From assembly GCF_003073045.1 (NCBI RefSeq), contig NC_037593.1:5695525-5759524 (forward strand): a stretch of 64,000 nt of DNA. Reading direction: 5' to 3'. Position 1 is the first letter of the stretch; each line of letters begins with the position of its first letter. Below, one piece after another: positions 8,271 to 57,018 of the stretch. The stretch comes from Pomacea canaliculata (Eukaryota; Mollusca; Gastropoda; Architaenioglossa; Ampullariidae). The notes under the pieces were generated by a model. That model saw only the letters and a list, made by a program, of their open reading frames with translations, was not told the DNA's origin and did no database searches. Both the position numbers and the translations under genes were made by a program.

Positions 8271-8720
8271 GTCTGCGCGTGTCGCGTGCAGGAGGTCAGT
8301 GGTCTGACGGGCAAGCTTATTAATAGCACCTACATTACACGGTACAGGTGTGGAACATTCCTTCTACGAAGTACGCTCACCTTGTGATTCAGAGGAAAAA
8401 GCATGTTTCAGGAATTGTCCATGGTCTCCATCTGATCCAAAATTTGACAGTTATATAATTTTAATTACAGTTTAGGGTCGGTGTATTTATCGCTTAGGCA
8501 AGTCGCAAATAATTTGCCCACCTCAGTTTTAAAGTCCTGTTTCCAAAAATAAAAAATCCTCTACCGTTTGTATCTAGTTGAAAGCTGCAAAGATCTGTAA
8601 TCTTCAACATACATGCTGTAGGTTTGGTAACTGATGCTGCTCAGCGACTTCTGTGAACGTGCTTTCCGTCTCAGTGTCCTGTCCAGCCACGTGTACATCC
8701 GGGTCAGCTTGTGATCAGTC

Positions 8721-35100: not shown

Positions 35101-36619
35101 AAGAGCCCAAGAGCAAGAAGCCCAAGAGCCAAGAGCCCAAGAGCCCAGAGCCCCAAGAGCTAAAGCCAAGACAAGAGCCCCAGAGCCAAGAGCCAAGAGC
35201 CCAGAGGCAAGAGCAAGAGCCAAGAGCAAGAGCCCAAGAGCAAGAGCAAGAGCCCAAGAGCCCAAGAGCCAAGAGCCAAGAGCCCAAGACCAAGACCCAA
35301 GAGCCAAGAGCCAGAGCCCAAGATGCCCAAGAGCCCAAGAGCAAGAGCCAAGAGCCAAGCAGCCCAGAGCCAGAGCCCAGACCCAGACCAGAGCCAAGAG
35401 CCGCAAGAGCCAAGAGCAAGGCCGCAAGAGCCCAAGAGCCCCAGAGCCAAACAAGAGCCAAGAGCCAAGAGCCCAAAGCCAAGAGCCAAGAGCCAAGAGC
35501 CCAAGAGCCAAGGCCAAGAAGCCAAGAGCAAGAGCCAAGCGCTCAAAGCCAGAGCCATAGAGCCAAGAGCCCAAGAGCCAAAGCCCAAGCGCCCAAGCCC
35601 AAGAGCCAGAGCCCAAGAGCCAAGAGCCCAAGAGCCCAAGAGCCCCAAGAGCTCTAAGAACCAAGAGCCAAGAGCCCAAGAGCTCCAGAGCCCAAGGGCA
35701 AGAGCCAAGAGCAAAGAGCCAAGAGCCAAGAGCCAAGAGCCAAGAGCCCAAGAGCCCAAGAGCCAAAAGCCAAGGCCAAGAGCAAGACCCAAGAGCCCAA
35801 AGCCAAGAGCCCAAAGCCAAGCCCAAGAGCCCAGAGCCAAGAGCCAGAGCCAAGAGCGCAAGAGCCAAGCGCCCAAGAGCGAAGAGCCCAAGAGCCAAGA
35901 GCCCAAGAGCCAAGAGCAAGAGCCAAGAGCCCAAGAGCCCAAGAGCCCAAGAGCATCAAGAGCCCAGAGCCCGAGCCAAGAGCCAGAGCCAAGAGCCCAA
36001 GAGCCAACAGAGCCCAAGAGCCGCAAGAGCCAGAGCCAAGAGCCCAAGGCCCAGATGCGCCAGAGCCAAGAGCGCCAAAGAGCCAAGAGCCAAGAGCCCA
36101 TAGAGCAAGATGCCCAAGAGCAAAAGAGCCAAGAGCCAGAGCCAAGAGCCGCAAGAGCCAAGCCAAGAGCCAGAGCCAAGAGCCAAAGCCAAGAGCAAGA
36201 GCCAGAGCCCAGAGCCGAAGAGCCAAGAGCCAAGAGCCCAAGAGCCAAGCCCAAGAGCCAGGAGCCAAGAGCCAAGAGTCCTCAAGAGCAAGAGCCCAGA
36301 ACGCAAGGCCCAAGAGCCCAAGAGGCCAAGAAGCCCAAGAGCCAAGAGCCCAAGAGCCCTAAGAGCCAAGAGCCAATGAGCCAAGACCCAAAGCCCAAGA
36401 GCAGAGCCAAGAGCGCAAGAGCCAGAGAGCCAAGAGCCCAAGAGCCGCAAACCCAAGAGCCAAGAGCCAAAGCGCCCAAAGAGCAGAGCCAAGAGCCCAG
36501 AGCCGCAAGAGCCAAGACCCAAGAGCAAGAGCCAAAGAGCCAAGAGCCCAAGAGCCCAAGAGCCCAAGAGCCCAGAGCCAAGAGCCCAAGAGCCCAAGAG
36601 CCAAGAGCCAGAAGCCAAG
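17141..36619. repeat. 19.5-kb T-depleted octamer satellite (GAGCCCAA family)
   Basis: A continuous tandem array whose commonest unit is the octamer GAGCCCAA. Shorter forms GAGCCAA (7) and GAGCAA (6) are interspersed, so most length variation is in the C-run. Early sub-blocks differ: GAGCCGAA to about 17,460, GAGCCAAA to about 17,720, then mainly GAGCCCAA. The + strand contains hardly any T, so stop codons are nearly impossible on + and, for lack of A, on the minus strand. This explains open frames of up to 1,651 codons encoding SPRAQEPK or LGSWALGL-type repeats. Three octamers equal 24 nt, hence the eight-residue peptide period. The array is truncated by an assembly gap, so its true length is unknown. 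Confidence 0.97.
22500..24300. repeat. diverged segment within the octamer satellite
   Basis: Here octamers are still recognisable (CCCAAGAGCC), but T-containing and non-unit words are frequent, for example GCACCATATCGACC near 22,510 and TCAATAATGAGAGCCGC near 23,649. It reads as older or less homogenised repeat than its surroundings. A smaller similar patch lies at about 30,560-30,790. Confidence 0.7.
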
Positions 36620-36719: not shown

Positions 36720-38512
36720 CACTTCTGTCTGCATGAGCATCCTCGCATCACTGCGGCTGTAAGGTCACAGGTCGCAACAGACTAAAGCTGTGGCGCCTCA
36801 CTGAAGCAGGCGTGTTGGCACGTGCATTTCTGTAGAAGCAAACAAAAGATAGCCTGCTCGAGGAAACAGAGTGTTAAAGGAAGACGGTTATGGAAATAAT
36901 ACTACACGCGCTGCACACACACATACACTTGAGAGACAGACTTACTGAACAAGCACGTTCACTTTAAATGCTTGTCGGGGCTCTAGATACGAATCGCTAT
37001 GCTCAGTGTTAGCACTGGTCATGAGCCTGCTGGCGGCTGCCCGGCCCCCGACCGCGCAGGGGGGCTTCCCGTCGCTCCCGCTGTGGTCAATAAGATGAGA
37101 TAGCCCCGGGCCGCAGAATGTGCGTGCTTACGCGGTACTCGTTTTTGTGGGAAGGATCATTGTCATACCTTCAGACCTGTCAAAACAAAGGCTCGACCAG
37201 ACCCTACTGAGCCACCCTCGCTCGCTTGACAGCCCGAGTGCCCGCATAGGCACATACGTTCCACGAGTTCCTTCTGGTGGCCCCTCCTTGACCACACCGC
37301 CGCCGACCGTCAACACGATCGCTCCACGATACTAATATACCGATACGTCGAGCGGTGGTTGCTGCTTACTCTGGCTCCGTTCTATTGCCCCATCCGCACG
37401 CGCGCTCGTCGACTCAGCCTCCCCCTTCTCGCTCTCAGAGCAAATCTGCGAAACCAGAAACGGACCGCGTAATGCCTATTATATTGTCATGGAAGGAGAG
37501 CTGTTAGCGCCCGCGTCATGGGGAAAGCAAGTACGAAGCTACACAGCTTATATTAGCGTTGCCGTTTTAGACGTTACTACTCTTTTCTTCTTGTTACATT
37601 GCGCTGGTCAGCGACGCACCCGGGTCCTGCGAGAGGCAACGCCAAGACATGCAGAAACGTGAGTAATTACGTCATTGAACTCCTGGCTGGAGGTCCTGAG
37701 TACCTTTGCTTCGATGATGGTGGCGTGGGTAGAGCGGTGGGTGGATCACCTTTCTTGTGAGACAGAAAATACAGAGCAGAGGCTACCTGCAGGAAAAAGG
37801 AATCTGAGGGCCACAACCTGTGTGTGTAGGTTTTTACTTTGTTAGAACAAACGGGATGGGGGAAAAAGTAAAACGAAAAAAATATAATAAAAAAATGTGA
37901 GTGCCTGCTTGCTAGTGGGGCGGAAAGGGGGAAGGTAAAATATTTCCCTCATGTCTTATTTGTTTTCAAGCCTGTATGGAAACGTGCTAGAAAGTGCATG
38001 TGCTTGTTATGTTGATGAAAGAAGAACAGGACATACAGGTAAGACAGAAAAACTAAAAAATCAATGGAACTCCAGCTTATACATGTAATTTTCATACTTC
38101 TGAGGTTTATAATATTAAGGTTTAATTTTTAGTGATGTGGCAATAATTACCACCATCTAGGTATTGGCTTTATATCAGTTTAATTCTTTTATTGTACAAT
38201 GGTCTGGTAGATCCCTTTCGAGAGCCACCATAAGCCCATATTTCTTAATAATACACCAACATCACCTCTATCACTCTCAAGTCATTTTTTCACACACACA
38301 GAAGTCACCTGAGTGATGGGAGAGAGAATAGTCCATGTTGCATCCAGGCCTATTCATATTAATCATCACTCATCAAAAAATCACCGAGAAGTTGCTTTTC
38401 CAGACTAGTACTAAAGGGAAGTAACTTTGTAGGTACCTCAATTTGTTCACGCTTTGAAAAAAGTTATCTCCCTTTATTTCTACACCACGTCCGATCGAAG
38501 AAATTACAACTA
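36720..38512. other. unique DNA with a GC-rich, CpG-containing patch
   Basis: Positions about 37,015-37,460 are clearly more GC- and CpG-rich than the surroundings, which could mark a promoter. At 37,651 an ATGCAGAAAC followed by GTGAGT could be a very short first coding exon, but nothing downstream confirms it. The rest is AT-rich and featureless. Confidence 0.35.
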
Positions 38513-39007
38513 CAGGTAGTCCTCGGGTTACGACGGTCTCGAGTTACGTCGTTTCGTGGTTACGACGCTCATTCCGACTTACGAGGTCAGTGCATCAAAG
38601 AAAAAGATGACCATCACCATGGAGCTGAAAGTGGATATCATAAGGCAATCTTAGAAGGGGGAAACAGCAACAGAAATTAGCAGGTCTTTAGGACTTAGTC
38701 GTTCGACTGTCGCTACGATTATCAAGGATAAAGATCGCATCCTTGAACACGTGACAGGATCTGCTCCTATGAAAGTGACAGTGATAACAAAGCGTACTGT
38801 ACTGCACAATAGTTTACTGTACTTATGTTTATTGATAATTATGTAGGTTGCTGTGTTAGGATAGGTGTTTGGATAGGCTAAGAGTTTGCAGTACTGTACT
38901 GTTATTATGGTACAGTACTGTATTAACGTATGATCCGACTTACGTCGAAATTCGGTTTACGACGCCGCGTTAAGAACGGATCCCCGTCGTAAGTCGAGGA
39001 CTACCTG
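38513..39007 (+). mobile_element. second Tigger/pogo-like element, internally deleted, with the transposase N-terminus
   Basis: Terminal inverted repeats of 23 bp (left end CAGGTAGTCCTCGGGTTACG) match with two differences, and TA dinucleotides flank both ends (38,511-38,512 and 39,008-39,009). From the ATG at 38,607 the + strand encodes the start of a CENP-B/Tigger-like DNA-binding domain: MTITMELKVDIIRQS, a stop codon, then KGETATEISRSLGLSRSTVA and TIIKDKDRILE, the typical helix-turn-helix followed by the KD/NKD-I motif. The DDE catalytic part is absent. Its ends and coding piece differ from those of the element at 2693-3569, so this is a different family. At 495 bp it is a non-autonomous deletion derivative. 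Confidence 0.88.
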
Positions 39008-39009
39008 TA

Positions 39010-42000
39010 TTTTGGTTTTAGTAACTCACTTTAAGAGGCGGCTCTCAAGCTTAATATTAAATGAATATGAAATTTCTTTTTCTTGTTTAGAGGAAGCATA
39101 TACTACCGAGCTGTTCATACTAATTCTGGATTGTGTGTTTTCCAGCACTTATCTCCTCTTGAGCCTCTCTAAACCAAAAACCTTTAATTGATGCAGCAGA
39201 ACATATACATGTTAGGTTCTTGCTGTAGCTCTGCCAAATGCTTAAAAAACTTATCACCTGTAATTTCTAAGTGCAAAGCTCTTCTAGATCAACGACTACC
39301 AGATTTTAAAAAAATTCCAAGCAATTTTTTTAATCTTTCCTAAAAAATCAAAAACAACAGATTAAGCATACCATTAATCAATAAACAGAACTGTCAGTAA
39401 TATATTCTCTTCTTTGTAGAAGATAAAGAAGCAACTGGTGAATACAAGTTGTGTGTATATATATATTTATATAGACATACATGTGAACATATGCACATGC
39501 ACACATACACACACAAAGATTTATACAGAGCTTTATCACACTTACAATTGTAAATATACATACATACTGGTGCTGCATCTTGCATCTTACAAAATATGCA
39601 TGGCTGACAATGTATTAAGACCATGAAACACAGTACTGATGGTTTTCCCTCCACACCTACCCCCAAAATAACTGACTTACTATTAAAATGAACTATAGAA
39701 GATACAAACAGGCATGCATAACTGCCCTAGCGAATTAAATAATAGTAATGTAGCACTGTTGTCTTGGGCTATCATCTTAACAACACCTCCATCTTTCAGA
39801 AATAATAATAAATTTGCCACTTTTTTGTTAGTTTTATGACTTCTGTAATGAGGAAACGTAATGAAATTGCTTCTAAAACAGATTATATTTCAACTGCACC
39901 AGAAAATGGGTTATAAAGTTTGTAAACCAACTATAATTCTGCATTGCTTATCACCTTTTTAAACTGCCATATTAAAACCTAAGGTTTATTTCAATGCTAT
40001 GACTAAATCTAAAAGAATGTTAGTATTATGTCATTAGATGGTCTGCACTTATTGTTCATTAAGGTGTATTTTTAATCAATGTTTATAAAAAATGTTCTGA
40101 ATCATATCAAAAAAATTTTTTTCTCTTCTTTGAACTCTTCAACTGAATTTCACTGTACCTTAATGAGAAGGTAGCAATCCGTGAAGAATGAAATTAAACA
40201 TTTCCGTTATTAGTATGCAAGGAACAGTGCCACCAGAATACATAATGATAAACAGACCAACAACATGGAAACAATGCTGTTGCCAATCATGTCTAATATA
40301 ACACATGCAACGTTGCAAGCTGCTGCACATTCAACACAAAATGATCTTTTTTTTAAGCAAAGATAATAACTGAAAATTAAATAAGCAAAGCACCAAATCA
40401 AATAATGTGATTGTTAAGACTGGCCAACCAAAAATGAAAAAATATTTCAAAAGATTAAATACCGGCTTTGTAGAAAAATGTGTTTTCTGCCATCTGCTCC
40501 ACAATGAGACTCTCTTTTTGGCCATCTGAGCATGTACTGGATGATGCAACTGATGACATCAGTTGCTGACGTCCTCTTACTGTGTGGGGATGATGACTGA
40601 ATGTAGTCACAGCAGGTAAAGGACAAGACTGCCTTCTTCGAAATGCACCAATGCTGCTGTGATCAGGTAAAGGCAGGCCACTGTTCTAATGGTAATGATG
40701 TAGATGTCTTGATGGAAGGCTCAGTCAATATTGTGTGGCCCAGATGAGATGACTGAAAATGGTACTGAATGGCCTCTCTCCCATAGTTCGACTATTCATT
40801 GCTGCAGTCTGACCGCGTCCTTTGCCATGCTGCAGGGCTCACAGACATCTGACTTACCAGTTTACCACCTTGGCTGAACAACTTTAATTTTTCCTTGAAG
40901 CTTTTCAACCACTGTTATTCAGGCATAATTGTTCGCATGCCAACTTGATTGCCACTTTCTGAGCTTTATCAAGATGTTGTCATCTGTGATGACCTGTTCT
41001 TCTGGCATGCTGGTCAGGTACCAGGTGTATACACTTGCTCTAGCTCCATCCAATGAATGTCAAAAGCTTCTTTCACCAAGCCTCTTTCTGAGCGAGAACG
41101 TTTGGCTGTTTCCTGTTAAGGTGTCAATGAATCAGGGGAGAGGTACTCATTCTTCGTTTTAGGATCTTGGCAACAGAACGATCTTTCCACACCAAAAACA
41201 TCTCACACAATTTCTTTCTGTTTCAGATTTGATTTTCAAGGCAAGTTTAATAAGTTTTGATTTTATCTTCCCTTGAGAGAAGTCTGTTGGGTTTTCTATA
41301 CTGTGTCCTGAATGTATGGAGCGATGGCATGTGGTGGATTCCATTTTTTCTCTCTCATCAGAACTGATCCCCTCAAAAAAACCTAATTCTAAACTTCAAC
41401 AACTAAAAAATACTACATTTTTCTTTTCATATCTTTTTATATATAAAGTCTCCTTGAAAAGACTGATAAAAGACGTCCTGAGTATAACTAAGTCCATTTT
41501 GGAGAAGACTTGATGCTTAGTTACTAAATATCGGAGGTTCAAGGAACATACTACGAAGAATGTTGACTGTGCATAGCAGGACAGCTTAATATATCACAGG
41601 TTATAATAAAAGTGAGGTAAAATGCTGCATGCACACACTAATGCAATGCCACTGTGTGTTTCTTTGCAGCAGAGATGCTGTGTCAAACAGGGCTGTGTAG
41701 TCACGGAAACATGCAAGACACTGAAGCCATTCTAAGCATATGTGCGCGGGCAGCGAGCATTTGCATGGGGGGCAACTCCAAGATGAGATTCAGATAGATG
41801 GGGGAAGAACGTGAGATGGAAACTGTGTGGATACTATGGCAATGCAGAGTGATGAAGCGCGAGAAAAAGTCAAGAGTCATTAAGTCCACCCTGCACAAAT
41901 AAAAACCAACAGAAATGGAGCTCTACGTCGTCAAATAAACAAAAAGGAAAAAATAAAAACATACTACATCAAAAGCAGCAAAGTACATGGATGAAGCTAA

Positions 42001-43867
42001 CGACATTTAAGCAAAACATGACACCATGCTTACATACTTACCCTAGTACTGTTATTGACATTGTCTTTCATAACAGTGTTTATAATAATATAATATAGAC
42101 AGCAATAGGAACATTGTTTTTATTCTCTACATCCAGAAACTAATATAACCATTACAACTAGTAATTAATAAAATGCTTCAGAAATATTTTCACTTCTATT
42201 ATGGTGTGGGTTTTTTCAGCTAGCCATAAAAGACTCTTAAGTAACAACAGCACATGCCCTGCACAGACATGCAGATCAAAGATTTCAGAGATAGGTGGGT
42301 TGTTGGGGAAGATGCCTAAGATCTTATACCTGAAAGTTTGGATCAATACATTTTTTCCCCCGACGTGGAAAGCATTTGATGGTACCTTAGCAAATTGTGC
42401 TGCATGCATATTCAGTTTTCTGCCCAATTGAATACAACAGCACTTCATTCTAGCCTGGTATGTAGATATTACTTTACTCTTAATCAGTTACTAGGGCTGA
42501 GTACAACACACACAAGAGAGTCTGATGGAATGACAGCATAAGATTTATTTGGAAGCATTACATGATTTGTCCTAGTGTTTCAAATGACATCCCATAAAAT
42601 ACAAGCAGAATAAAGAACAGAATATTAAGCAGCAGAATCTGCTGTCTCCTTATAATTAAAATGGAAATATGTACACTGGTAAATAACCCTGAAGTTATTG
42701 CGAGGTTTTGTGCCACCTTTCATTTCCAAAATTTATAATAACATCATATTGCAAAGATTCACAAGGAAGCTAAAGAAACAGGACATACTAAAGTAATGTA
42801 TCAGAGTGAAATATCTTGCAAACAATTGCTAAATTCAAAGTAACTAAATATTAAAGGGAAAGTCACGAGTCAGAGTTTTTCTGGATTAATGGTATACTTA
42901 AAAAATAAATTGCTTCTGTAGCATGATCTTGACAGGTTTGTGAGACAATCTATGTTTATAATTTAGAAACCGGCCTGACTCACTGACAGTTCACAAAAAT
43001 TCATGAAATTAGGGTGTTAATAACTAAAAGCAAAATGTAACAGAACTTACAGAAGTTGTAAAAATATTTTATTAGCATTCAAAATCTCTGATCTTGTGAC
43101 TTTCCTTTATTTAGTTACTTCAATTTAGACAATTGTATTGCTATGCCCATTTTCTGAAAATGCAACAAAGAGATGTTTCTAATGGAGAGATATAAAAAAA
43201 TAAATGTTGTTTCCCAACTGCCAGTATAAAAAAAATAATACCCATCGCTAAAAGCGGTCACTTGATACAGAATGTATCATATGTATTTGCAATTAATTAA
43301 TGTAAGCATTAAATTAATAATGAACTAAATGAATCTGGAGAATGATCATATATCATGCCACAAGGGACAAATCTTTCTAGAAATGAAATTATGTATTGTC
43401 TACCAATACACAGTATACTAATATTAAATACCACCATCAACTATACAAGTTAATATTACATGCTGCACTCAATAACTCACTTTTGATTGCAGCTTTTTTT
43501 ACTGTACATAGTTGTCTTCCCGCCAAGATTTTTTATTATTATTATTACTGACTAATCCTCCACAACAACAATGCAAAATTGATCCATGGTGCTCGAGGTG
43601 TTACCGACAGGCAAAACTTGTTTGTAATGCGACAAACTTCAAATAAATAACATAATCGATGGCCTGGTTTGGTCTAGGAAATAATGGTTTTATACTAAAA
43701 GCATTTGCTCATGAGATGGGTAGCTCATTATTACTCGTGTCTTCCGCAGTAATGGTCCACCAGTGACCACTGGCACCATCTTGTTACTTCTCAGTTAACA
43801 AACGAACTAATTAGCGACTGACATCCATCATCTTATATCACAGCGTATCAGCTTACCTTTCAGTAAA
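39010..43867. other. long AT-rich stretch without a supported gene
   Basis: About 4.9 kb of AT-rich DNA. CA/TA simple sequence occurs at 39,455-39,520. The part 40,560-41,350 is less AT-rich but has stops in all frames at short intervals. Nothing here was recognised; it could be intron or a long 3' untranslated region. Confidence 0.4.
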
Positions 43868-43990
43868 ATGACGACGTGTGTAATGCATTTCGGTACGTTT
43901 GCAACTAAGGACAACGAAGAGGTAAAGCACTTCATCCCCATCCATCAGTCTCATCGTATTATGTTCATCTCAGACGAGTCCAACATAACC
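43868..43990 (+). CDS. candidate first coding exon of an unrecognised gene
   Basis: ATG at 43,868 (context AAAATGA) opens a 41-codon frame, MTTCVMHFGTFATKDNEEVK and further residues, ending at ACC before a canonical GTAAGT donor (phase 0). No partner exon or domain was identified. It could be the start of a gene whose later exons lie downstream, for example the open frame near 47.1 kb, but this is speculation. Confidence 0.22.
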
Positions 43991-44507
43991 GTAAGTAAGG
44001 AGACTCACGCTGATTTCAATATATTAAAATAACTTTTCGCTGATTATAAATGACCATTTCTCCTAAGACAACAATTAAAAAACTTTAGAAATAAACAGAT
44101 TCGAAATAATAGATGCCAACTGGCTTGGCAGTTAGACAAAGAATGAGAACGTTAATGAGCTGGAAAAAATTACCCCCTATTTTACAATGAGCTAAACTCA
44201 ATCGCAAGAGTAGTTTCCCTTTCAAGGCAGCGCATGACCGATAACTCTGTCATCTGCTTCCGCGTAACAGCTATAAAGTGCGTCCTTCTGTTTCATTAAT
44301 TTTTTGAAGCTCTTTCCAGTTTAACGATAAACGTAAGGAGGCCAGGACATATAAGCGTCTTATTGGTAGCTGCACAGATATTATTAAAAGTGGATTCTAC
44401 TACATGTCAAATACTGTACCGATCGATCGGTCGGAAAGTTGGTTTTCACATCTATGAGGCATAATCGATCGATAGACATTTATTATAATTAAAACTAAAT
44501 GGTGTCC

Positions 44508-44690
44508 GGTCGTATAATGGTTGAAACACTCGCTTGTCACCACTGCAGCGAGCGGCTCAGGGTTCAGATCTCGTCTCGGAACATTCTCCTTCCTTCCCCA
44601 TAGTGCGAAATGGCCTCAAGGTGGAAGCACTTTCCTATTAAACCTGCCAACCAAATTAATAAAACTGTAATCTAATTGCTGACCTACTAC
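44508..44690 (+). mobile_element. tRNA-derived SINE copy
   Basis: The head looks like a diverged tRNA: an A-box-like GTATAATGGTTGAAACAC and, about 45 bp later, a B-box-like GGGTTCAGATCTCG, with short complementary ends (TGTCCG and CGGAACA). A tail follows that contains GTGCGAAATGGCC. A related but diverged sequence is at 55,475-55,635, sharing ATCTCGTCTCGG and the tail, which supports a dispersed element over a true tRNA gene. No anticodon stem of normal shape is apparent. Confidence 0.6.
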
Positions 44691-44832
44691 ACCCATACCC
44701 TTTAACAGCTCAGGACCAACCAGTCCCACAATTACACTAGCCACTTACCTAAGCATCGATAAGCATGGAACATGCTTAGGCTCCACTTTCGTGCTGCACG
44801 CAGCCACACAGAGTTGGCGTCCCGCAAGGAAG

Positions 44833-44892
44833 CTGACAAAAGTCTGGTCAAAGAGGATCCTCTTTGGTCCGGTGGCTGGACGTGTTTGTCAG
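44833..44892. repeat. nested inverted repeat
   Basis: An 18-bp perfect palindrome (CAAAGAGGATCCTCTTTG, 44,849-44,866) sits between outer 8-bp arms CTGACAAA (44,833) and TTTGTCAG (ending 44,892). Confidence 0.8.
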
Positions 44893-45755
44893 GACAGAAA
44901 ATTGTAGTGACTTTCGATAGTTTTCTCTGATTGCAGAGAGGTTTTTTGTGTGTGATATCCAGGGTATAGAGAAAAGAAGTAGTAACACAACTGAAAATAA
45001 CTGGTAAAGTATGAAATCGAAGGTACCATAAAAAAGACTATATAAGTGCTCCGTCCCTATTTCATGCTGTCCCTAAAAACGCAGTCCAGCGTGATCCTGA
45101 AAGCTTGGGAGAGGAAGGATGAATGATGTACGTGTACAGTTGTCGAAAAAATACACACGCAAACACACACAAAAAGGGATATAGTCGTTTGTTTGTCTTG
45201 AAGCATCAGTCAAGTCATGACAATTCTAAGACTGTGCTAAGATCGATTGATATACACTCTCAAAAGAAAAGGCGGCTTTAATAGAAGTAACTGCAAGCAG
45301 TTGAACATATCACTTTTCCCCATAGTCCTCGGGCAAAATGACGCACTTGTTGTATTGATCAACTGTAAGCTTCTGTACTCCTGCTGAAGAAATTTTGTCG
45401 GCTTCTCCTGAAGCCAGGCACGCATCCTTTACATCGTTGGAGGTCAATTTGCGACAGTGTAGCGCTTTCTTCAGTGTGATGTGATAATTATGTATTATGG
45501 CGAATGCAGATCCCTAGCTGATATCCAATGTTCACTCAGTAGAGACACCGTTATTCATCAATCTTTTCTACTCCAGCTATCCTCTCTATCAATGTGTTCT
45601 TGTGTGCGCGATGGTGACGGGAGAGCAAAATGACCTTTGCTAGCTACACTTTTTTCCGGTTATCGCGTAATTTAAAAATTGCCTTTACTTTTTATTATTC
45701 TCACTCAGGCGCGTGTGTGTGAGTACGTGTGCACGTGCATGTGTGTGTGTGTGAG
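44893..45755. other. intergenic DNA with a possible TATA promoter
   Basis: ACTATATAAGTGCTCC at about 45,037-45,052 looks like a TATA box with a pyrimidine-rich region after it (GTCCCTATTTCATGC). No first exon could be confirmed. A GT-rich simple repeat ends the interval (45,712-45,753). Confidence 0.3.
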
Positions 45756-45932
45756 CAGGCCAGTTCTTAGCCCCCGCGGGGCCCGAGGCAAAGGGCATCT
45801 GCGGGGCCCTCACGCCACGATCACACGGTTTTAGTTGGGATCTAAAGTCACATATCAATCAAAAGCGCGGGGCCCTTGAAGCGCGGGGCCCTAGGCAGAT
45901 GCCTCGTCCTCCTGCCCCTAAGCACGGCCCTG
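45756..45932. mobile_element. hAT-like MITE with GC-rich terminal inverted repeats
   Basis: The left end, CAGGCCAGTTCTTAGCCCCC, and the reverse complement of the right end, CAGGGCCGTGCTTAGGGGCA, are similar, and further inside both sides carry GGGGCCC-GAGGCA/GATGCCTC elements. Start CAGG and end CCTG fit hAT ends. The possible target duplication (TGTGTGAG against TGTGAGAG) falls in GT/GA simple repeat and is not decisive. At 177 bp it has no coding capacity. Confidence 0.65.
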
Positions 45933-47105
45933 TGTGAGAGAGAGAGAGATTCAAAAGAAAAATCTTGAATTCTTTAATCCTTCGATTTATGGCTGCATAA
46001 TTCAGATAGTCGGTTTAGCATCAAGCATAAAATCACAAGAACTGGGACAACCAACTGTATGAATTAACGGATAGAACATAAAATGTCAAAGTTATCTTGT
46101 AACTTGAAAAAAAGTATGACTGTACATCAGTTTGATCCACATAAGAGTGAGAAACTGGGGGAGGAAGAGAGAAAAAGTGAGTGAACTAACGACGCTTGTG
46201 TATTCCAGCCACCTATAGGTATTTGACCTACTTTGTATATTTCTGTCTTCTAAGCTTTACTGGCTGTCGATATATATATAATCAATTCGTAACCGTCGAG
46301 AAAAATTTATCCCTTTAATTCCATGTTAGCCATAAACGCAAAAAAGTCGAAACATTTACTCTAGTAAAACAGAAAACGAGAAAGAAAAGGGTCCCTAAAC
46401 GTTAGCCCGTACATACCTTATCCTGATTCAACCTTTCCTGTTATCTTTTGTTTTCCCACTTTCCAGTGCATTCTTTGTTTTCTTTTCCCAAATTATTTTT
46501 TTAATATAATCAACATTTTAACTAGCGTGATAAGTGAGGAATTTGGGCGGAATTTGGCTAAGGTGAAGGGTCGAAATGGGGGTTATTTTGGAGTTTTTTT
46601 TTCTGTATACTACACAGCTTTTTTCTAAAGTTCTAAACAATAATAATAATTCATCAGATTATATCTAAAAGCTACTCGAAGCGCGTATCACACACGCACG
46701 CAAGCGCTTTTTTTTTTTTTTTTTTAAAGGGGGAGTAGGGGAAGTTCCATTTGTCTATGCATGCCACTGGCAAGGATTTGCAACCACAGTGTACAAATAC
46801 TGCACGAGAGCGCTTGCCAAAGTTAAAAATGGAGAACTGTAGCATTCTGAGCACAAAGGAGTGTTGGGGTCTCAGCACCCTTGATGGTTTATACTGGTGA
46901 ATAAGAGTAGACGTGAAGGTAAGATAACTACATGTACTACAGTGCAGGCAGCGAAAACAAAGGGAGGCCACTGCGCGCCGCCTGGTGGAAGCCAGTGCAG
47001 GCCCCTGAGCAGCGAAGGACTCGTGACGAGCCCCACACAGAACAATGCCTGCAGCGTGGGTCGGACTGAATTAGCTGGTTTGTTCAGCTGCGCATCAGGA
47101 AACCA
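45933..47105. other. intergenic DNA
   Basis: AT-rich, with a run of about 19 T at 46,707-46,725. No gene is supported. Confidence 0.4.
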
Positions 47106-47435
47106 TTGAGAACTGTAGCACCCGACACGGGAGAGAATAAGCGACACTGCGAGTTTGTTTGCAGCACCGAGAGGCAATGCTTACGAATCCTCCAAAAAGA
47201 CGATGACAATCAGTCGCATAAAATCACGTGGCCCATGGCATCGACCAAACTGCAAATTGTTGAAGACACGTCCAGAAAACAGAGAAATAAGACCTCGCCA
47301 TGGTCAGATCCTTTCAAAAGGTCATTCACTACTCGCACTAAAGCTGTCTCGGTGCTGTACGACTTAAATAGGCTGATTGGTAAAGCTCTGGACAATCAGG
47401 CATTGCGTGAGCCACAAGCTGCTGCAGAACAATAA
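47106..47435 (+). CDS. candidate terminal exon or small ORF with a dibasic site
   Basis: A 109-codon open frame is less AT-rich than its surroundings and ends in TAA. Its C-terminal part reads SDPFKR followed by SFTTRTKAVSVLYDLNRLIG and a Gln/Ala-rich end, an amphipathic-helix-like stretch after a Lys-Arg pair, as in peptide-hormone precursors. However, no signal peptide is present in this frame, so it would have to be the last exon of a longer gene; acceptor-like CAG sites lie at about 47,090 and 47,163. No family match is recognised. It may be only a chance ORF. Confidence 0.22.
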   Translation: MRTVAPDTGENKRHCEFVCSTERQCLRILQKDDDNQSHKITWPMASTKLQIVEDTSRKQRNKTSPWSDPFKRSFTTRTKAVSVLYDLNRLIGKALDNQALREPQAAAEQ

Positions 47436-49673
47436 GTTTAAGTAATGTCGAGAGAAAGGGAAATTACACACTATGTCCTATTTATATATATGCACGATAT
47501 ATATTGTAAGCACTTTATTGAAACATTTGGCATGCTTTCATTCCATGGATACGTTTCCACTACTGTTCACTTCCAGTCGGTGTTTTGTTCGTATGGATAC
47601 ACAACACAGCGTTTTATATGATCATTTGTCTGTTCTTCTTCAGTAATTCATTAACAGTAGGCATTAATTACAACTACCATTCACACCCATCATACCCACA
47701 CATACTCTACTCATTACAATATTTTCTGACGCTGACTAGTTGTACGCAGTTGTACTGTCACGTGACAGTGAAAACAATGGTAAGAATAACGGAGTACCAG
47801 TAACATTCATAAAAATAGGTATAACATTCATATAAAACAAAAGCAGCGTGCGATTTTCTTCTCTGCTGGCGTGTCCATGTCACTTGTCCGAAGGGTCAGA
47901 AAAGAGGAGACCTATACACTATCTGACCTCTTTATTTCGCAACCACCCGTTTCTCACAAATGTAACAGGATGTATGAACTATGGGTAGTTTTGGGGAAAT
48001 CCGTTTTCGTGTGGAGAGAGGCTCAGTGGTTGGCGAGAAAACGAGTTGAAACAGTGCATAGAGCACACACACGTGTATAAGTGTTCATCATAAAGAATAT
48101 TCAGGGTGGCAGCAATATAGTTGACCTCTCTCTCACACACACACACCCCAAGAGAGGATCCAGATACCTCCACAATTGATGTGTTGACATTCATACGCTA
48201 ATCCTTCTGCAATGTGTCCGTGTGTGTGTGCTCTCACAAGAGAAGCTTTGCAAAGATCGTTAGGGTCTATGTTGCCTCTGAATGGCTGTCATAATGTGTG
48301 CCATACCTGTGCACAAAGGGTTTTTACAGCCATCGTCATGCATAAAACCTTGTCATCCTGTACGCGCACTCGAAGGTGTGTTGAGTGCGTGCATGCACAC
48401 GAAACAAGATCAGACAACAGTGTAAAATCCAACTGGGGCGGGGGACGCAGTCTACCTCTCTCCAAACAACAATATATGGTCTGTAATGTACTTGTGTTGC
48501 AATACAGTTTCAGTCCTAATCGAAAAAAATCACTAAAATCTAATCTTGAAGGCTGTTTACACTTATTTTATTCAATGTATGTTTGCGAATTGCAAGAATA
48601 ATTATCCTGGACATAGACTGTAATACTAAACCAACTCATTCTGATCAATGCTAATCAGTTGAGCATATCGTAATGCTAATCAAATGAGAGTATCGTAAGC
48701 AGTGCCACCACTGAATGTGTATCTTGCACTATGGCAACATTGTTTGCACACATTGCACAATGTCATGGCAACATTGTTTGCACACATTGCACAATGTCAT
48801 CTTTTTTGTGCTTGTCTTACACAGTGTCAGCATTGATGAAGTGAGCAGGGACTAGACACACATTCGCATTCCCTTTGACACAAAATACAGACTGAACTCT
48901 AGTAGTCTTCATCACAGAAAAATAAAGGTTATTACAAAATTGTTTCTGACCAGTATATATCTGTTGCTTACCAACACCTGTTAGCAAAATAAAGTCACAT
49001 TTTGAGAGGAGAGAGAGAGTGGCCTACAATCTCTCCAAACATAAGCGTGCTATCACACACACAGAGAGGAACAAATCCAGAGGATGATGTGTCCCTCCAT
49101 GTTTAACCCCAGGCACCGTTAAAGTAGGGCCACACCAACCCTTTTGAGAAGGAAAGGACTTCAGATGAAAAATCATCAAAATATATAGTAGATATTTTGA
49201 ATAATTAACACATCATGGGATGTAAAAAGGGAGAGGAGATATCTTTCAATTATGAGTGAGTAATGTAACAATAATACAGAGAGAAGGTTGAGAGATAAGA
49301 GACATCAATGACATCATTTACAGGCATGGGTAAACGATGACTGGCATTACATAAAGTATGGCGAGGTAATGGCTGAGTTGGTTGTTTGTAGAAACTGTTC
49401 AAGGCGCACCTGTATCATAGCCAGCCTAGCCCACGGCAGTCTGTAGTGTATACACTGTTCATCTCAACCTTAAAAAAATAAAAATCAATGTAGCAATTTC
49501 TCAAGTTCCGGCATTTACTCAGCGATCCCTGTAGATGGGGATACTGTGTGTCTGGCGACAAGCGGAACTATGTCTATCAATATCAAAGACCTTGCATAGT
49601 GGAGATACAATGTCTGGGGTCAATACTGCCGCCGACCTAGCGACACTGGCAGCTGCAACAGATGCCACCAGCA
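47436..49673. other. intergenic DNA downstream of the Rab-like gene
   Basis: No gene is supported. A 34-bp tandem duplication is listed separately. Several CA/GT and GA simple stretches occur (48,133-48,150, 49,007-49,020). Confidence 0.4.
48731..48798. repeat. 34-bp exact tandem duplication
   Basis: Two identical 34-bp units starting ATGGCAACATTGTTTGCACA lie head to tail (48,731-48,764 and 48,765-48,798). Each unit contains an inverted pair, CATTG and CAATG, around GCA. Confidence 0.92.
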
Positions 49674-51667
49674 TCAGCACCCACACTTTCCTTTGGACTC
49701 TTCTTTCGATTTGTCCTCCATTTTCTGCTCCAGCGGCAAGATGGAGGTGGATAGTGTTGGAATGCGAGAGGCGTTCAGAAGGATCTTGTCGATGATCTTT
49801 TCCAGGAGGTCGACAAAAGTGTAGATGTGTTCAACGCTGATTTCCTCGTAAGGCAGTCCCAAGTGATTGGCGAATTCTTGAGCTATTGATAAAGTCACCT
49901 GACGCTGATTTCCAGTCACGTGACAATTGCAGCCGGCCAGCGCCATCACCATTTCTTCCCAATGGTCTTGATTTTTCAGTTCCTGCAGCCTGTCAAGGAC
50001 AGGTAAAGGACAAGTAGAATTATTAGATTACTAGACCAGCGAGGCGGTAACTACTTAGTATCGAGTGGAAACAACTGTGAACCCGCCCTCCCTTCCCATT
50101 CCACATTCATACATTCTCTCTCTCCTCTCTTCTCTCTCTCCTCCCCCCCCCCCCCCCCCACCAACTCTCTCTCTCTTAAGCAAGTGCAATTGAAAAACTT
50201 ACCAATCAGAAATACCGTCGAAAGTTGCTTTTTTGGTGACATCGAACAAAAGTAGACAACCGTGGGCTCCTCTGTAGAAGGATGATGTGACACTTCGAAA
50301 GCGTTCTTGTCCTGATTGTGTGATATACATAATATTAGCACATAAGATTTGTATCTACACCCCTATATATGATCTATAATATTGTGATTATCTAATACTT
50401 TCGTAAGATTTGAAAAGTTTATGAGTGACACTTTTTTTTTTTTTTTTTTTTTTGCACTGAAAGAGGACAGTGACAGTACATGGAAACGTTTCCATTGTAA
50501 AGGCCTAGGCCAGTGGAAAAGTCTGGAACGTATCTCAACTACGACCTCACGATGTTGCCCTTTATCTGTGCATGGTTCTATTTGAAGGCGGAAGAAGGGG
50601 TCTCCCTCCCCCAGATTTGGGGACATAATATCTTTACTAAGCTTTGTCCAATCATTGGAAAAACAACCCCCCACCACCACCACCACTAGACATTTTACTT
50701 TAAAATCGGTTTAATTATGTTTAAGTCAATAAGCAAAACCTTCATCGCATGCATTCCATTAAAGTAAATTTAAAATGATATTATCATTAATTTGACTCGT
50801 ATTGGGAAGCCCCGCTTTCTTGTAAATCTCTCTCTTCCACTCTCTCTCTCTCTCACACACACACATAACTGATAACACTTGATATTTTGTTGTACCATGC
50901 AAGACGGAAAACCCTTGCGAGATACCCGACATACCCCGATCAACATGTGGTTGACATAATGTTAATACTGAGACCGCTGCACCCCAAATAGTGTGCGAAT
51001 TATCCACCCGTGTTTAGCGCACTGAAACGATATTTAACTTTTTGTAATAAATTTATTAATATATTCCTCGTAGCAAATGTTAAAATAAATTCATAAACAT
51101 TCTTAGTCGTCTCTAACTTTAATTGTCAACAGTGAGTCATCTGCGATTTCGGCGCAGAAGGCAGCAAAAACTATTTCATTATTGATGGCGAGCCCGTAAT
51201 CAATGAAAATCACGAAAGTATAATCAACGATTGCTGAGGTCTGAATGAATACAGCAACAAAAATGTTGATGAGAGACCAGTCAGAAATATTCCTCCCGTA
51301 ACAAACAAACAAACAAACAAACAAACAAACAAACAAACAAAGCAAAAACAAAAGCCAATTCAAATGTGAGAAGACGTTAGACCTCCAGAGCAAAGTAATT
51401 AATTAACGTCAGCTAATTAATTCATTAAAAATTACATCATGCGCTTAAAACACTTTATAAAGTACCTCCCGTTTCTTGAATTTTTGCTCTGACTTTTCTG
51501 TCGTCAGGGCGCACAAACACCATTTCCAGAAGTCCCATTCTGCGCGGTTCCAGACACCACACCTCCCGGGTGGGGGTCAGCTCCCCCAGCGAACGCATTA
51601 GCGCCCCTTTGTTGACTGTGAAATCCCCCAGCAAAATAATCTTCAAGGTGTAGTCGTAGCGAGCCAT
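49674..51667 (-). CDS. Rab-family small GTPase-like protein with degenerate nucleotide-binding motifs (three exons)
   Basis: Exons 51,667-51,466, 50,311-50,203 and 49,989-49,674 (minus strand, GT-AG, phases 1 and 2) join in frame into 208 residues, the usual Rab length. The start is in good context (CCCATGG). Family identity is clear from the beta-1 strand YDYTLKIILLGD, the switch II block GQERFRSVTSSFYRGAH, the LLLFDVTKKATFDGISDW block and the C-terminal CGC prenylation motif (residues 206-208). The nucleotide-binding motifs deviate: the P-loop GxxxxGK[S/T] is GDFTVNKG (14-21), DTAGQ is ETGGQ (65-69), NKxD is CNCH (124-127) and SAK is SVE (155-157). An intact frame and intact splice sites argue against a pseudogene. 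It probably sits on membranes through its prenyl tail but may not bind or hydrolyse GTP normally. Intron 2 carries CT repeats with a 17-C run (50,143-50,159). Confidence 0.87.
50143..50159. repeat. poly-C run within CT repeat
   Basis: Seventeen consecutive C bases directly follow a CTCTCTCTC tract, inside an intron of the Rab-like gene. Confidence 0.95.
50432..50453. repeat. poly-T run
   Basis: Twenty-two consecutive T bases in an intron of the Rab-like gene (poly-A on the coding strand). It could be the tail of a retroposed copy, but no element body was recognised. Confidence 0.9.
51301..51340. repeat. (CAAA)n microsatellite
   Basis: About ten perfect copies of ACAA/CAAA inside intron 1 of the Rab-like gene. 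Confidence 0.95.
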
Positions 51668-53197
51668 GGGTCACTCCCTGCTCCTCCTCACTTCACGAAA
51701 CGTCTGCAGAGCAAAGTCCAGTCGCTTTTCCAAGACTCCAGTTCCTGTTGTCAGAGTTGGAAGAGTTCACTTACTAGGACTACTACCATCGCTTATGGCT
51801 GGGCTGTAGTTCTCTTATCAACAAGCTCCATGTTTCTAGTCTAATCAGACACCTGTCCTCTCGGATCACGGATTTTCCCTTGTAAATGGAAACAATTTCT
51901 TTCTTAGTTTTATTTAGATATCCAGTTTCTCCATCAATCAGGCACTGTTGTGTTCTTGGCGACGATCGCTGTTCCTCAGGCTTGTGGTGCTCCCTCTCTC
52001 TCTGTGTTTTCTCAGATTGTAGATATTCGGCGCTTTCTAGTCCTCTGGTACACCTGAAAATAAACTTTTGTGGTCAGTGTCTTCGATACCCGTGGATAGT
52101 GAATTGGTAGTTCAAATAGCAAATCTCTATTAGCCCGAATCAGGCAGGTGTTTCGGCATGCTTTAATACACTGAGTAGGGGGATTCTGTGACCATGTCAC
52201 ACGAATAGGAGAAGACAACAGACCACAATGTGAGAAAAATAAAGGAGTTCCTCTCTTCCTCTTATCGAATATGAGATAAAGCTTGATGATTGGGTCACGA
52301 GGTATGGACACAAACAGCTTTTTATACAGCGACTTATAACGATAACTTTCCCTCTCCTAAAAATAACGGCAGCCACGCACAAATAAACATAAACGCTATC
52401 GGCTGCTTTTGAAGATGGGTTTACTAGAGACCAGTAATTATTAATATAAATTATTCATAAAACTGCCTGACACTTTACAAGACTTCTGTGTTCATTACGT
52501 TTAGAGAAAGAATACCTAAATATTTTGACACGTTTGATAATGTTTTAATTTACTGTTGCTTTTACCTTTGTTATTTTGTTTGCTGCATTAATTTTACGCT
52601 TAAAATGTTCATAAAATGTGTATACCCTACAAAGAGCTTGATATCTATACAGGGGCATCATATTTATTTTTATATGAAAATGTTTCAATGTGAATAATAT
52701 TATTACCAGTAATAAAAAGTTCAAAGTAAAACATTTCATGGTGTGCATTGTGCTACATTTTCAGTCCAATAAAAGAATATAAATTAACTGTTAATCTGCC
52801 AGATTCCGGATATTATTAAAAATAATTCTCCAACATTCCAAAAGCAAACTTGTTAACAGAACTCGACTTTATATTTTGAAATAATTTAAAGATGGAATGT
52901 TAAAATTATGATATCTTTATAGATTTGTACATCGTACATAAATTGTAACTAGAGAAAAATAGGGGTTGAAATGTCGTTTTCATTATATATTGTTGCACCG
53001 ATATTTGACAATAAGAATACATGTTGTTACTTAACATTAGTATCTTTACTGTCTGCAGTTTACAACTTCCTGCACACCAAAAATCTGAAACTAAACAGTA
53101 AAAGAAAAAAATAAAGCGAGAGTAAGTATTGCCGAGAGCTCTTAATGTGAGGTACTGACACGTACGAATCGTCGAGTGCTCTTACAGAAATACTTAT
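51668..53197. other. upstream region of the Rab-like gene and AT-rich spacer
   Basis: The first 150 bp (51,668-51,820) are less AT-rich and should hold the minus-strand 5' untranslated region and promoter of the Rab-like gene; no TATA box stands out. The remainder is AT-rich with no supported gene. Confidence 0.35.
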
Positions 53198-53578
53198 GTG
53201 TGTGTTATAGTCAGGCTGATCCTGTTGTCTGCTAAAGCCAAGACATCAACAAAATATACATGTGACATACACACAAACCACAGAGGAAGTGAATGTGTTG
53301 TCATTGCTTTCCCCAACCTTCGAGACAAATACGTCAGTGATTTCGCAATCTGTAATAAACGAATTTCTTCCACACTTTGTATCCGGTTCAACCTCGCCCA
53401 TGTCGATGTGCAGTCGACCGTGGTTTTCAATATCCTAACGCAAGTCCCTTCAGGGAAGCGGAACTCCCTATTCAGTGACACGAAACCGGACTTTTCACTA
53501 CAAATGTTGTCTGTTATGTGGGTTTCGCACCTGTGCAGGAGGACACAAACTGCACACCCAGCACCTGCTGAGAAAATA
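53198..53578 (+). CDS. candidate coding exon fused to a transposon end
   Basis: A 180-codon open frame starts at 53,198; its first 127 codons precede the terminal repeat of a MITE at 53,579 and the rest is transposon sequence. The host part has a beta-rich, Cys-containing flavour, for example FPNLRDKYVSDFAICNKRIS and RFNLAHVDVQSTVVFNI, suggesting an extracellular-domain exon. No family is recognised. The minus strand is also open over 53,194-53,481, so chance cannot be excluded. Confidence 0.25.
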
Positions 53579-54278
53579 TACTGTAAATTTCAGACTATAA
53601 GCCGCCACTTTTCCCTAGCTTTAAAACCTGAGTGGGAATTTTTTTCTGGATTTTTCAGATTGCAATTAATTTTTTTAGATGAGCTGCTAGGTCAGTGGTT
53701 CTCAAAGTATTTCGGACCGCGGACCACTTTACTTAAGTAAAAAATATGGCGGACCACCAAGGCCTAAAAATCACTCTGTACTATGAATTTCAAATTTAAA
53801 TTACCGCATTTGTTTCATTACAATTCAAAACTAAATGTCCTTTTGTGACAGTAGTATAGTAATAAGTTGACATAAAACTACCTCGTTCTTTGTAATTAAA
53901 ATATTAATGCGAGGAATACATCTCTTTAAACATCACTTTGCTGACATATGACGACTATCAGCCGCGGACCACCTGACTTCTGCCCATGGACCACTAGTGG
54001 TCCGCGGACCACACTTTGACAACCACTGTGCTAGGTGTTAACGTTGTTACAGTGTGAACTGTTCAGATTTTTAAATCAAGGCCGCATACAACTGAAGCAT
54101 TCAGATCAGTTGCTGAAGAACACATCCTCGTCATGCCGAAATGCCTGCGAGGCAGCTTTAAAGTTGTAGATATCTGCTGCTTGTAAACCAGTGAAAAAAG
54201 TATACATATATTTTTTTTACAAAATTTAATGGGTGTGGCTTATATACAGGTGCGCTCAATAGACCAAAATTTACAGTA
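53579..54278. mobile_element. Tc1/mariner-type MITE interrupted by a hAT MITE
   Basis: The left end TACTGTAAATTTCAGACTAT and the reverse complement of the right end, TACTGTAAATTTTGGTCTAT, are inverted repeats flanked by TA (53,577-53,578 and 54,279-54,280). Inside, GTGTGGCTTATATACAGGTG before the right end and TATAAGCCGCC near the left end match a widespread family of small TA-targeted elements. Without the inserted hAT copy (53,693-54,028 plus one 8-bp duplication) the element is about 356 bp, with no coding capacity. Confidence 0.82.
53693..54028. mobile_element. hAT (Charlie-like) MITE nested in the TA-type MITE
   Basis: The left end CAGTGGTTCTCAAAGT and right end ACTTTGACAACCACTG form inverted repeats of the Charlie-type hAT class. 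Perfect 8-bp target duplications TGCTAGGT flank it (53,685-53,692 and 54,029-54,036). Both sides contain repeated GGACCACC/GGTCCGCGGACC words. At 336 bp it is non-coding and must rely on an autonomous hAT transposase elsewhere. Confidence 0.93.
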
Positions 54279-55470
54279 TATCTCCATGTATTTATTTTAT
54301 TTTGTATGGATGTAATAATAACTACACTGTCTATCCTACATTTTTCTCTGAATTTAACTTGGGAAGGGACCGCATATAAGCTTCATAAAACCAGTGAACT
54401 AACTTCACGAGATCAAACATGTTACTCACCCCCACTGATGAAGTTCTCTTGACACCCATACGGTTGAAATGTTTCGAGTGTTTACCGTGTGCTTGTACAC
54501 CACCAATGTATTTATGAGAAAACTTGGGTGCGAGAGGGGTGGCTGGGTGCGGCGAAATGAATGTAGGGGTGGATAGAGGCGGTGGAGCAGACAAAAATAA
54601 CCGCCGTTGCGTTTGTATTCGGTCATAACGACCTGGATTTGAGCCATGGGTGTGTTTTCCTATCGACAGCGATCTACCAATAGCGTGGCAAGAATTTCTC
54701 TTTTGTAGCAGATACAGGTTCTAAAAACCTTTTATGAGATTCAACCCCTCGAGATCGAGGAAGCAAAGACACGTTTATTCACATATTTATCAAACCTAAG
54801 AGAAAAGAATCACAATGACAATAATTGTTTGCCAATCTATGTAAGTCTGTGTTAAAGACTAATTTAAAGCGTATAACTGAATTTTCATTCGGCACTCACC
54901 TTGCATGAAATGTTGAAAATTCTAATTCTCAATTCCAAGACAAATGGAGGAAGAAAAAGGCGGGGGAGTCATGGCCCATGCGTGAGATTTTCCGCTCATA
55001 ATTAAAAATATTAATAACACCTTAGAACCATGTACGCACACCTCTAATACAGAACTTTAATTATACCTTCATGTGAACATGTAGACCAGTTCGTCCACTG
55101 AAAGCATAGAAACTTTTATGAAAGAAGAGACGAGTGACCATATGTCGCTCATTCCAGTTGTTAAAACGAGATAACAAGTTTTAAACTACATAGCAAGTTT
55201 TTAAAACTTACAGAAGTTGAAGTGGATGTCAACGCCAAACAAATGGAATTTACAGACGTAAGGTATGTCAAATACAGGTATCAAGTACACCGGAGTAGAC
55301 AAACAAAGTGTTTTCGTTGTAATCCGATCTCTGCCGGCCTTCTTTCTGAGCTCGTCTCACATGCACACGTTGTGTTTCTGAAAGCTATGTGCCCCTATTG
55401 ATGCTATCTGGGAATTTTTTTAAAAAAGTCTTTTCAAATGTCTGCTTTGACCACGTTTTCTTTCTAAATA
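54279..55470. other. intergenic DNA
   Basis: No supported gene. A minus-strand frame at 54,426-54,647 starts at ATG in a CCCATGG context and runs to a GTGAGT donor, but its composition (Pro/His/Ser-rich, overlapping open frames) is not convincing. Confidence 0.35.
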
Positions 55471-55474
55471 TTAC

Positions 55475-55635
55475 TTGGTGGCCCCATTTCCCTGGGCGAT
55501 ACAGCGAGGGTTGGCTGTCCTGGATTCGGATCTCGTCTCGGGCACGCTGTTCTTTCTCTACATATGTGGCATATGGCTTGCCGTGATACAGCGTTAATTG
55601 CTGGCTCAACTTCCCTTCTGCATCAGACATTCTCT
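55475..55635 (+). mobile_element. second, diverged SINE copy
   Basis: GGATTCGGATCTCGTCTCGG corresponds to the B-box region of the SINE at 44.5 kb, and the following CATATGTGGCATATGGC aligns with its tail. The A-box half is poorly preserved. The exact ends are uncertain. Confidence 0.4.
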
Positions 55636-57018
55636 GCCGTTTCCCATATATCAGCTATATATATAAGGTACAATACCACTTTGCCAAAGATCAAACTCTT
55701 CAAACACAACACTATAATACAGTGAATGAAGATGTGAACTCATGCGGAACTGCAACGCAGAAACAAAACAAAACAAAAAATACCCCCAAACAAACAGACA
55801 ACTGTTGTTTTTTTGATCTTCCAACAAGGAAGTCGACAACAAAGCCAGACGTCCCCATGCAATCGGGGACATGTGTTACCAGAAATAGCCCTATTTAATT
55901 TGTTGTTGCACAAGCATTGGGAGGAAAAAAAAAACCTATATGTTCATAGAGCTGGCAAATACTTGTCACCTAGGAACACCTACACGCGTAAAACACAAGT
56001 ATACACATAAAAATACCAAAATTACGATCTCAATTATGTATAAAGAAAAAAAACGAGTTGCAGAGAACTATACGAGAATATTGACTACATCTACACACGC
56101 GCGCGTTTCAACTTGGCCGGGGTACCCGTACCCGCATACACAAGATAAAAGAGAGAGTTGCGCAGTCTAACCTAAGGTGTTGTTTCTTACTGACCTTTCT
56201 CTACCCTGCTTAAAATTTTCCCAGAACGTTCATATGACACATTAAGATTAATTACAAATGCTGACTGAAATTCGATGAAAGTTAAAATTACAGTACTGAT
56301 TTGTTATGTCACCGCCATCCATCTATACAAATGTTAGGCAAGAGGTGAAATAAATGAGGAAATATTATCCCCTAGTGGTGACCTTTTGGGCAGGGGTTGT
56401 GGTGGAATCTCTTTAAAGTCTGTCAAGAGATAATGTCTGTGAGATAACAGATGGCAAGATAATGAGCTGAGATAGAGCATTTATGCCAAAGGTTACCCAT
56501 GCGATAGATTATAAGGTTATAGCCTACACCGACGGCTCTCCGCTCCACACTTGCCCAGGGCCCCGCATACTGCTAAGGCCGCCTCCTGTGTGATTGTGAC
56601 TAGTTTGAGTGCATGATCAATTATTTCTTTCAAAATTTGGATCAAGCCCACATTCCTACCATGAGTGATTATTCTTTTCACTTGTCTTTCTTCATTCTTA
56701 AAAAGCAACCACGTTTTTTAACCAACAAAATCTTGAAACAGAAGGAGGATTTATTTGAATCACATGTAACTCACAACCAGCATAAGAACATCATCATGCA
56801 AGATAGCAGAGTGTTCTTACTGCAAATGCTTTGATTACCTATTTTGAAGTTATACATTTGTGCAACGCATTTTTGGAATACTATTTTTAGTCACAGCATG
56901 CATTTACTTGCATTAGGCATTTTACTTCGATGTGAGTAATGATGCCAGTATTGCTGCATATATACAGATGCACAAAGGATGAAACCATTTATGATTGCAT
57001 GCATGCACTGGTGTTCAT
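55636..57018. other. AT-rich intergenic DNA
   Basis: Nothing was recognised. Short A runs occur (55,925-55,934, 56,046-56,053). Confidence 0.4.

Follow-up and report, generated by a model that had tools for sequence, protein, structure and literature searches.

What is left of a Rab protein once the residues that make it a GTP-dependent switch are gone? This question is raised by psRab-A, a gene on the minus strand of a 64,000-nucleotide stretch of the genome of the golden apple snail Pomacea canaliculata (C4:5695525-5759524; hereafter the window), which we compared with the 440,159,624 bases of that genome in 24 contigs. We consider it probable that psRab-A, a Rab-derived protein-coding gene, specifies a membrane-anchored pseudoGTPase of class (i), a nucleotide-independent scaffold or decoy. 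Most of the evidence is carried by a duplicate of the gene, psRab-B, and by a clade of five genes to which both belong.

The three exons of psRab-A are joined by GT-AG introns (Table 1) into an open frame of 208 residues that is Rab-like in sequence and, as in psRab-B, ends with the cysteines of a CGC directly before the stop codon, which by sequence could be prenylated. In both copies a single codon separates the start ATG from an in-frame TGA upstream of it. The sequence-only reading of this locus had proposed an intact three-exon frame of this length, and the exons, their splice sites and the open frame are all present. The Pfam Ras model (PF00071) matches psRab-A with an E-value of 7.2e-25, restricted to residues 52-173, and the shorter Roc model matches residues 9-119. 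In the PDB, 611 sequences were matched at E <= 0.001, and among the best 60 of these the Rab1 chains are at the top, covering residues 3-158 (best 4.7e-26; Rab1A 9.7e-26). The Rab1 matches show that psRab-A is a genuine sequence of the Rab fold, as opposed to a frame open by chance; with both a significant Ras/Rab profile and a Rab structure match, it belongs to the Rab family by descent. In addition, the Rab-type segment after switch II (RabF motifs RFRS.T, YYRGAHG, FDVT) is found in exon 2 as GQERFRSVTSSFYRGAHGCLLLFDVT, in alignment with Rab1A. The RabF1/F2-type switch I and IWDTAG stretch is missing from psRab-A, which has no IGVDF and in which KIQETGG replaces QIWDTAG. Neither a broken frame nor a loss of introns was found in psRab-A or psRab-B, both copies having the frame and the two introns intact, and a processed pseudogene was ruled out because psRab-A keeps its introns.

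The motifs that bind the nucleotide have fared differently. Compared with Rab1A, G1 reads GDFTVNKG for GDSGVGKS, G3 ETGGQ for DTAGQ, G4 CNCH for NKCD and G5 SVE for SAK; each of these had been quoted correctly in the earlier reading, as had the retention of switch II and of the CGC. In switch I, gaps stand opposite TIGVDF of Rab1A and no Thr is aligned with the switch-I Thr, which is the least certain of the losses because that stretch aligns with gaps. None of the sequence marks of a working GTPase (GxxxxGK[ST], switch-I Thr, DxxGQ, NKxD, SAK) is found in psRab-A, and the first P-loop Gly and the P-loop Lys are kept in both copies. With the NCBIfam small_GTP model, psRab-A scores 23.1 bits, short of the cut-off of 42.5, whereas R64, another member of the clade, passes at 57.6. 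When the three frames of the minus strand were scanned for patterns over window positions 47000-54000, there was no GxxxxGK[ST], no NKxD or TKxD behind a hydrophobic run and no SAK or SAL after E/C-[TCA]; the sole match was a DxxGQ (DPRGQ at 51867) inside a 20-codon open stretch. A missed canonical exon near psRab-A, one of the findings that had been named as fatal to a pseudo-GTPase, was therefore ruled out in those frames. That assignment is well supported by the altered G1, G3, G4 and G5 of both copies, the unrecognisable switch I and the small_GTP score. The product of psRab-A is probably unable to run a GTP/GDP cycle, and the mark of a class (i) pseudoGTPase, a GTPase fold without G motifs, was judged from its sequence with the fold inferred from homology.

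The duplicate, psRab-B, was found by a protein search of the genome 2.8 Mb away, with its three exons within C4:8567929-8569957. It is intact and shows the same G1, G4 and G5 replacements as psRab-A, from which it differs in having ETAGQ at G3 and five additional residues in the switch-I region; the exon 2 proteins of the two are without a difference, and the splice sites are canonical and conserved between them. Searching the genome with the DNA of the whole gene gave 20 matches, namely psRab-A, psRab-B and 18 pieces of about 30-73 bases that all fall within intron 1 of the query. The gene lies in a segmental duplication, the limits of which are partly set by the stretches compared, and the range of its blocks from 85% to 96% identity suggests uneven divergence or partial gene conversion.

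Three further genes, R62, R63 and R64, make up the clade together with psRab-A and psRab-B, all five being on the same strand of contig C4. In each of them a 37-residue exon 2 is flanked by two introns, one of phase 1 that interrupts the Gly codon preceding Gln and one of phase 2 that interrupts a Trp codon. A scan of 65 loci for the phase-1 junction, in which many loci overlap, this phase alone was sought and some matches are probably inside continuous exons, gave 14 distinct pattern matches. Four of these reach the GT-split Trp codon and they are the clade, since the identical peptide of psRab-B was merged with that of psRab-A and was confirmed separately. A tree of 16 rows, built on the part from G3 to alpha5, unites the five genes at 98/97, although it holds only those snail Rabs that are readable in one exon, leaving out most, which have split exons, and 3 of its 13 inner branches are well supported. 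The shared loss of motifs could attract the five genes to each other in such a tree; the intron phases are independent of that. In exon 2, psRab-A is 65% identical to R64, 70% to R63 and 49% to R62. The alignment also brings out a tail pattern, L...I.P, in each of the five rows, and Ser precedes the Ile in 4 of the 5. Because the synonymous divergence (dS) between distant members is saturated, we give raw proportions of synonymous (pS) and nonsynonymous (pN) differences for exon 2: in the nine pairs other than psRab-A with psRab-B, pS is 0.76-0.94 and pN 0.14-0.31, so that this segment has long been under coding constraint. The possibility that psRab-A is a lone oddity was ruled out by its duplicate and by the clade.

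Within the clade, the motif losses look graded. At G4 the members read CNCH (psRab-A and psRab-B), SWKG (R62), TVCQ (R63) and TRCN (R64), so that the Asp is absent from all five, as is the SAK of G5. For comparison, G4 was surveyed in the 30 other Ras-family loci that score best among 153 matches, which include separate exons of a single gene as well as Rho or Ras proteins; six do not display the motif in full, and the Asp is kept in all 24 in which G4 can be read (23 by pattern, locus L012 by eye). The difference (0/5 vs 24/24; Fisher p 8e-6) has to be read with the clade members being non-independent and with the 24 controls being top scorers, which biases them toward canonical motifs. Since the replacements of NKxD differ between the lineages, the loss of G4 may also be parallel. 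A recognisable TIGVDF is found in none of the five, and in R62 an Asn is aligned with the switch-I Thr. At G3, R62 has DTAG, and R63 and R64 have DTGG. The P-loop residues, by contrast, are kept in R62 (GDLGVGKT), R63 (GDYGVGK) and R64 (GDFSVGKS), and for this reason the loss looks graded, with psRab-A and psRab-B further along. R64 also carries about 40 extra Ser-rich residues between the P-loop and G3 (exon 1 in locus L066, minus strand), and the open frame of this exon extends well upstream of the P-loop.

Whether the two copies have been kept as genes since the duplication can be judged from the differences between them, which over 208 codons are 10 synonymous and 17 nonsynonymous (dS 0.075; nonsynonymous divergence, dN, 0.036). 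The exons contain one insertion or deletion (indel), which is in frame, vs 32 in 3165 aligned non-coding positions (p 0.019), and no frame-breaking indel vs 17 non-simple ones in the non-coding sequence (p 0.046). In a simulation of neutral decay (4000 trials per setting, with an assumed transition bias, frameshift share and A-like ancestor), both frames stayed intact with a probability of 0.0005, which rose to 0.016 when the indel rate was halved. Exon 2 shows three synonymous and no nonsynonymous changes, a borderline contrast with the other exons (p 0.053), and the difference between nonsynonymous and non-coding divergence has a p of 0.051. These results favour constraint since the duplication, which is unproved. 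The sequence-only reading had taken kept splicing and frame as a sign of selection; the intact copies and the indel contrast agree with it, while the ratio of dN to dS (omega), which it had proposed as a check, leaves the matter short of proof.

The same comparison can be read as that of a recently relaxed Rab duplicate that is becoming a pseudogene, whose frames have stayed intact mainly because little time has passed since the duplication. We regard this as unlikely, but several observations, together with the limits of the tree and of the G4 survey given above, count against our preferred reading. The divergence is small (5.7% in the non-coding sequence, besides the low dS); omega is 0.48, below 1, but its bootstrap 95% interval of 0.21-1.23 includes 1, with 5.75% of the bootstraps at 1 or more; exons 1 and 3 have a dN/dS of about 0.7; and nonsynonymous and synonymous divergence are separated at p 0.095. 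Exon divergence (27/627) is not lower than that of the non-coding sequence (179/3165; p 0.21), and the indel contrast is weaker when simple repeats are left out (22 non-coding events; p 0.087). Under simulated neutral decay the probability that neither copy acquires a stop is 0.16-0.17, so the missing stops alone say little. Moreover, the frame of R63 is shifted by one base immediately behind P-loop residues that are otherwise canonical (about 7150-7160 of locus L063); this may be an assembly indel or a real lesion, and it follows that decay may occur in the clade. On the other hand, the P-loop, G4 and G5 losses are common to both copies, so that on the simplest reading they predate the duplication, and both frames outlived it against the simulated odds. 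A gene in decay also fits poorly with an exon 2 that has no amino-acid change between the copies and that, across the clade, stayed coding while its silent sites became saturated.

Two other explanations concern the protein itself and its gene model. The pocket might have been rebuilt for another ligand, either another nucleotide or a nucleotide without magnesium, and not emptied; we think this improbable. It would be expected, if base specificity had been relaxed first, that R62, R64 and, before its frameshift, R63 have normal P-loop residues and neither the guanine-reading Asp nor SAK, and the first Gly and the Lys of the P-loop are still there in psRab-A and psRab-B. The second P-loop Gly, the Ser/Thr that follows the Lys, the switch-I Thr and the G3 Asp serve to hold phosphate and magnesium in a GTPase. 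In psRab-A and psRab-B the first two are lost, no switch-I Thr is recognisable and the Asp has become Glu, which leaves little for phosphate and magnesium. That psRab-A is an artefact of the gene model, in which exons were misjoined and another exon or an alternative start supplies the canonical motifs, seems very improbable. The exon joins rest on genomic sequence, but the stop just upstream of the ATG in both copies, the conserved canonical splice sites, the same intron phases in other clade members and the lack of a canonical G1, G4 or G5 pattern in the scanned minus-strand frames all speak against it.

We therefore return to the reading of psRab-A as a membrane-anchored pseudoGTPase. As a member of a snail Rab group without the guanine-recognition part, it is probably a fixed docking piece and not a switch. 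Its product would fold as a Rab without a bound guanine nucleotide and go through no nucleotide cycle, would be loaded onto a membrane via prenylation of its tail, and, having no GDP state, would not be extracted by GDI. It could then offer an unchanging docking surface to a partner that recognises the switch II/alpha2-beta4 face, or act on that partner as a decoy; the role of tether or decoy put forward in the earlier reading is one that psRab-A may have. As to its origin, a snail Rab clade would have lost the guanine-specificity motifs (G4 and G5) and the normal switch I, and the P-loop would then have been lost in psRab-A and psRab-B. More tentatively, and with the balance somewhat against it, we propose that a gastropod Rab clade gave up the guanine nucleotide switch in steps, with switch I, G4 and G5 lost before G1, and kept the switch II face, L...I.P and the C-terminal cysteines. 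In this proposal psRab-A and psRab-B would be Rabs that carry no nucleotide, never leave the membrane and antagonise or scaffold the partners of ordinary Rabs, and R62 and R64, which have kept their P-loops, would represent surviving intermediate stages whose base specificity has changed.

Table 1. Features of psRab-A, its segmental duplication and the other clade genes (window positions unless C4 is given).
Feature	Location	Strand	Description
psRab-A exon 1	51466..51667	-	N-terminal part with degenerate P-loop (GDFTVNKG), no recognisable switch I, and start of G3 (ETG)
psRab-A intron 1	50312..51465	-	phase 1, splits Gly codon of xTxG|Q; donor GTACTT, acceptor CAG
psRab-A exon 2	50203..50311	-	GQERFRSVTSSFYRGAHGCLLLFDVTKKATFDGISDW, end residues split by introns; switch II and next strand
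psRab-A intron 2	49990..50202	-	phase 2, splits Trp codon; donor GTAAGT, acceptor CAG
psRab-A exon 3	49674..49989	-	G4 CNCH, G5 SVE, tail motif LSTSILP, C-terminal CGC and stop codon
Segmental duplication holding psRab-A	37355-56425		second copy C4:8554004-8578125, blocks 85-96% identical
R62	C4:4394012-4399157	same as psRab-A	from genome searches
R63	exon 3 C4:4404549-4404848; exon 2 C4:4407388-4407501	same as psRab-A	exon 1 upstream, in L063
R64	about C4:4800108-4807378	same as psRab-A	exon 1 in L066

Elsewhere in the window, positions 17254-36619 are occupied by a 19.4-kb array of imperfect units of 7-8 bases (AAGAGCC/AAGAGCCC), very poor in T on the plus strand, which gives rise on either strand to spurious open frames as long as 1651 aa; a run of N follows near the end of the array. 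A 252-codon open frame on the plus strand at 8715-9473 has weak PAN-domain matches just under the Pfam cut-off (PAN_1, 20.7 vs 21.4 bits).

Among known systems, a close parallel is CENP-M, a kinetochore pseudo G-protein whose closest structural homologues are Rabs, in which two glycines of the P-loop and further G motifs are missing and which is described as incapable of GTP binding (PMC4080450). Distant members of the CENP-M family keep a canonical P-loop, as do the clade relatives of psRab-A, and the example of CENP-M makes clear that a relative of Rabs can act as a pure assembly part even when its P-loop glycines are missing (PMC4080450). CENP-M itself occurs in molluscs (PMC4080450), so that finding a pseudo G-protein in a snail is not in itself a novelty. 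psRab-A differs from CENP-M in being far closer to Rabs, as its Rab1A match attests, and in having switch II and the CGC tail. CENP-M is not known to have a prenylated tail. No direct comparison of the two was made, and CENP-M does not appear by name among the best 60 of the 611 PDB matches of psRab-A.

Relatively few pseudoGTPases are known (PMC5593906), and those met in this comparison are kinetochore, RhoGAP-domain, dynein-chain or amoebal proteins. The pG1 and pG2 domains of p190RhoGAP are of class (i), with a GTPase fold but without G motifs or nucleotide binding (PMC5593906). Under the same scheme psRab-A is of class (i) if it binds no nucleotide, but it is a free-standing, membrane-tailed Rab while pG1 and pG2 are domains in a large RhoGAP protein (PMC5593906). 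EhRabX10 and EhRabX3 of Entamoeba have been labelled pseudoRab GTPases, and EhRabX3 has been called a functionally active hydrolase (PMC8514894). EhRabX10 is without the G2 Thr and its G3-G5 are non-conserved, yet it keeps G1 and has TKAD at G4, in contrast to psRab-A and psRab-B, which are without G1 and the G4 Asp (PMC8514894). A molluscan pseudo-Rab was not found among the papers listed from the literature searched, which subscription journals are mostly outside, and a paper on Rab evolution makes no mention of mollusc, Lottia or P-loop (PMC3425129).

The behaviour proposed for psRab-A has a precedent in Rab29, which is geranylgeranylated, stays on the membrane and resists extraction by GDI (PMC9574512), so that a Rab can remain on membranes without GDI cycling. 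Rab29 differs from what is proposed for psRab-A in not being a pseudoGTPase; its G motifs are canonical. The same contrast holds for the canonical Rab1, the best PDB sequence match of psRab-A, and Rab30, that of R62, which keep their G motifs in the alignments whereas the psRab clade is without TIGVDF, NKxD and SAK. If our reading is true, a free-standing, membrane-tailed Rab without G motifs and its same-chromosome sisters at an earlier stage of loss would form a natural series in which to ask what parts of a Rab remain functional in the absence of nucleotide, and whether a Rab without any switching is still recognised by REP, GDI and effectors.
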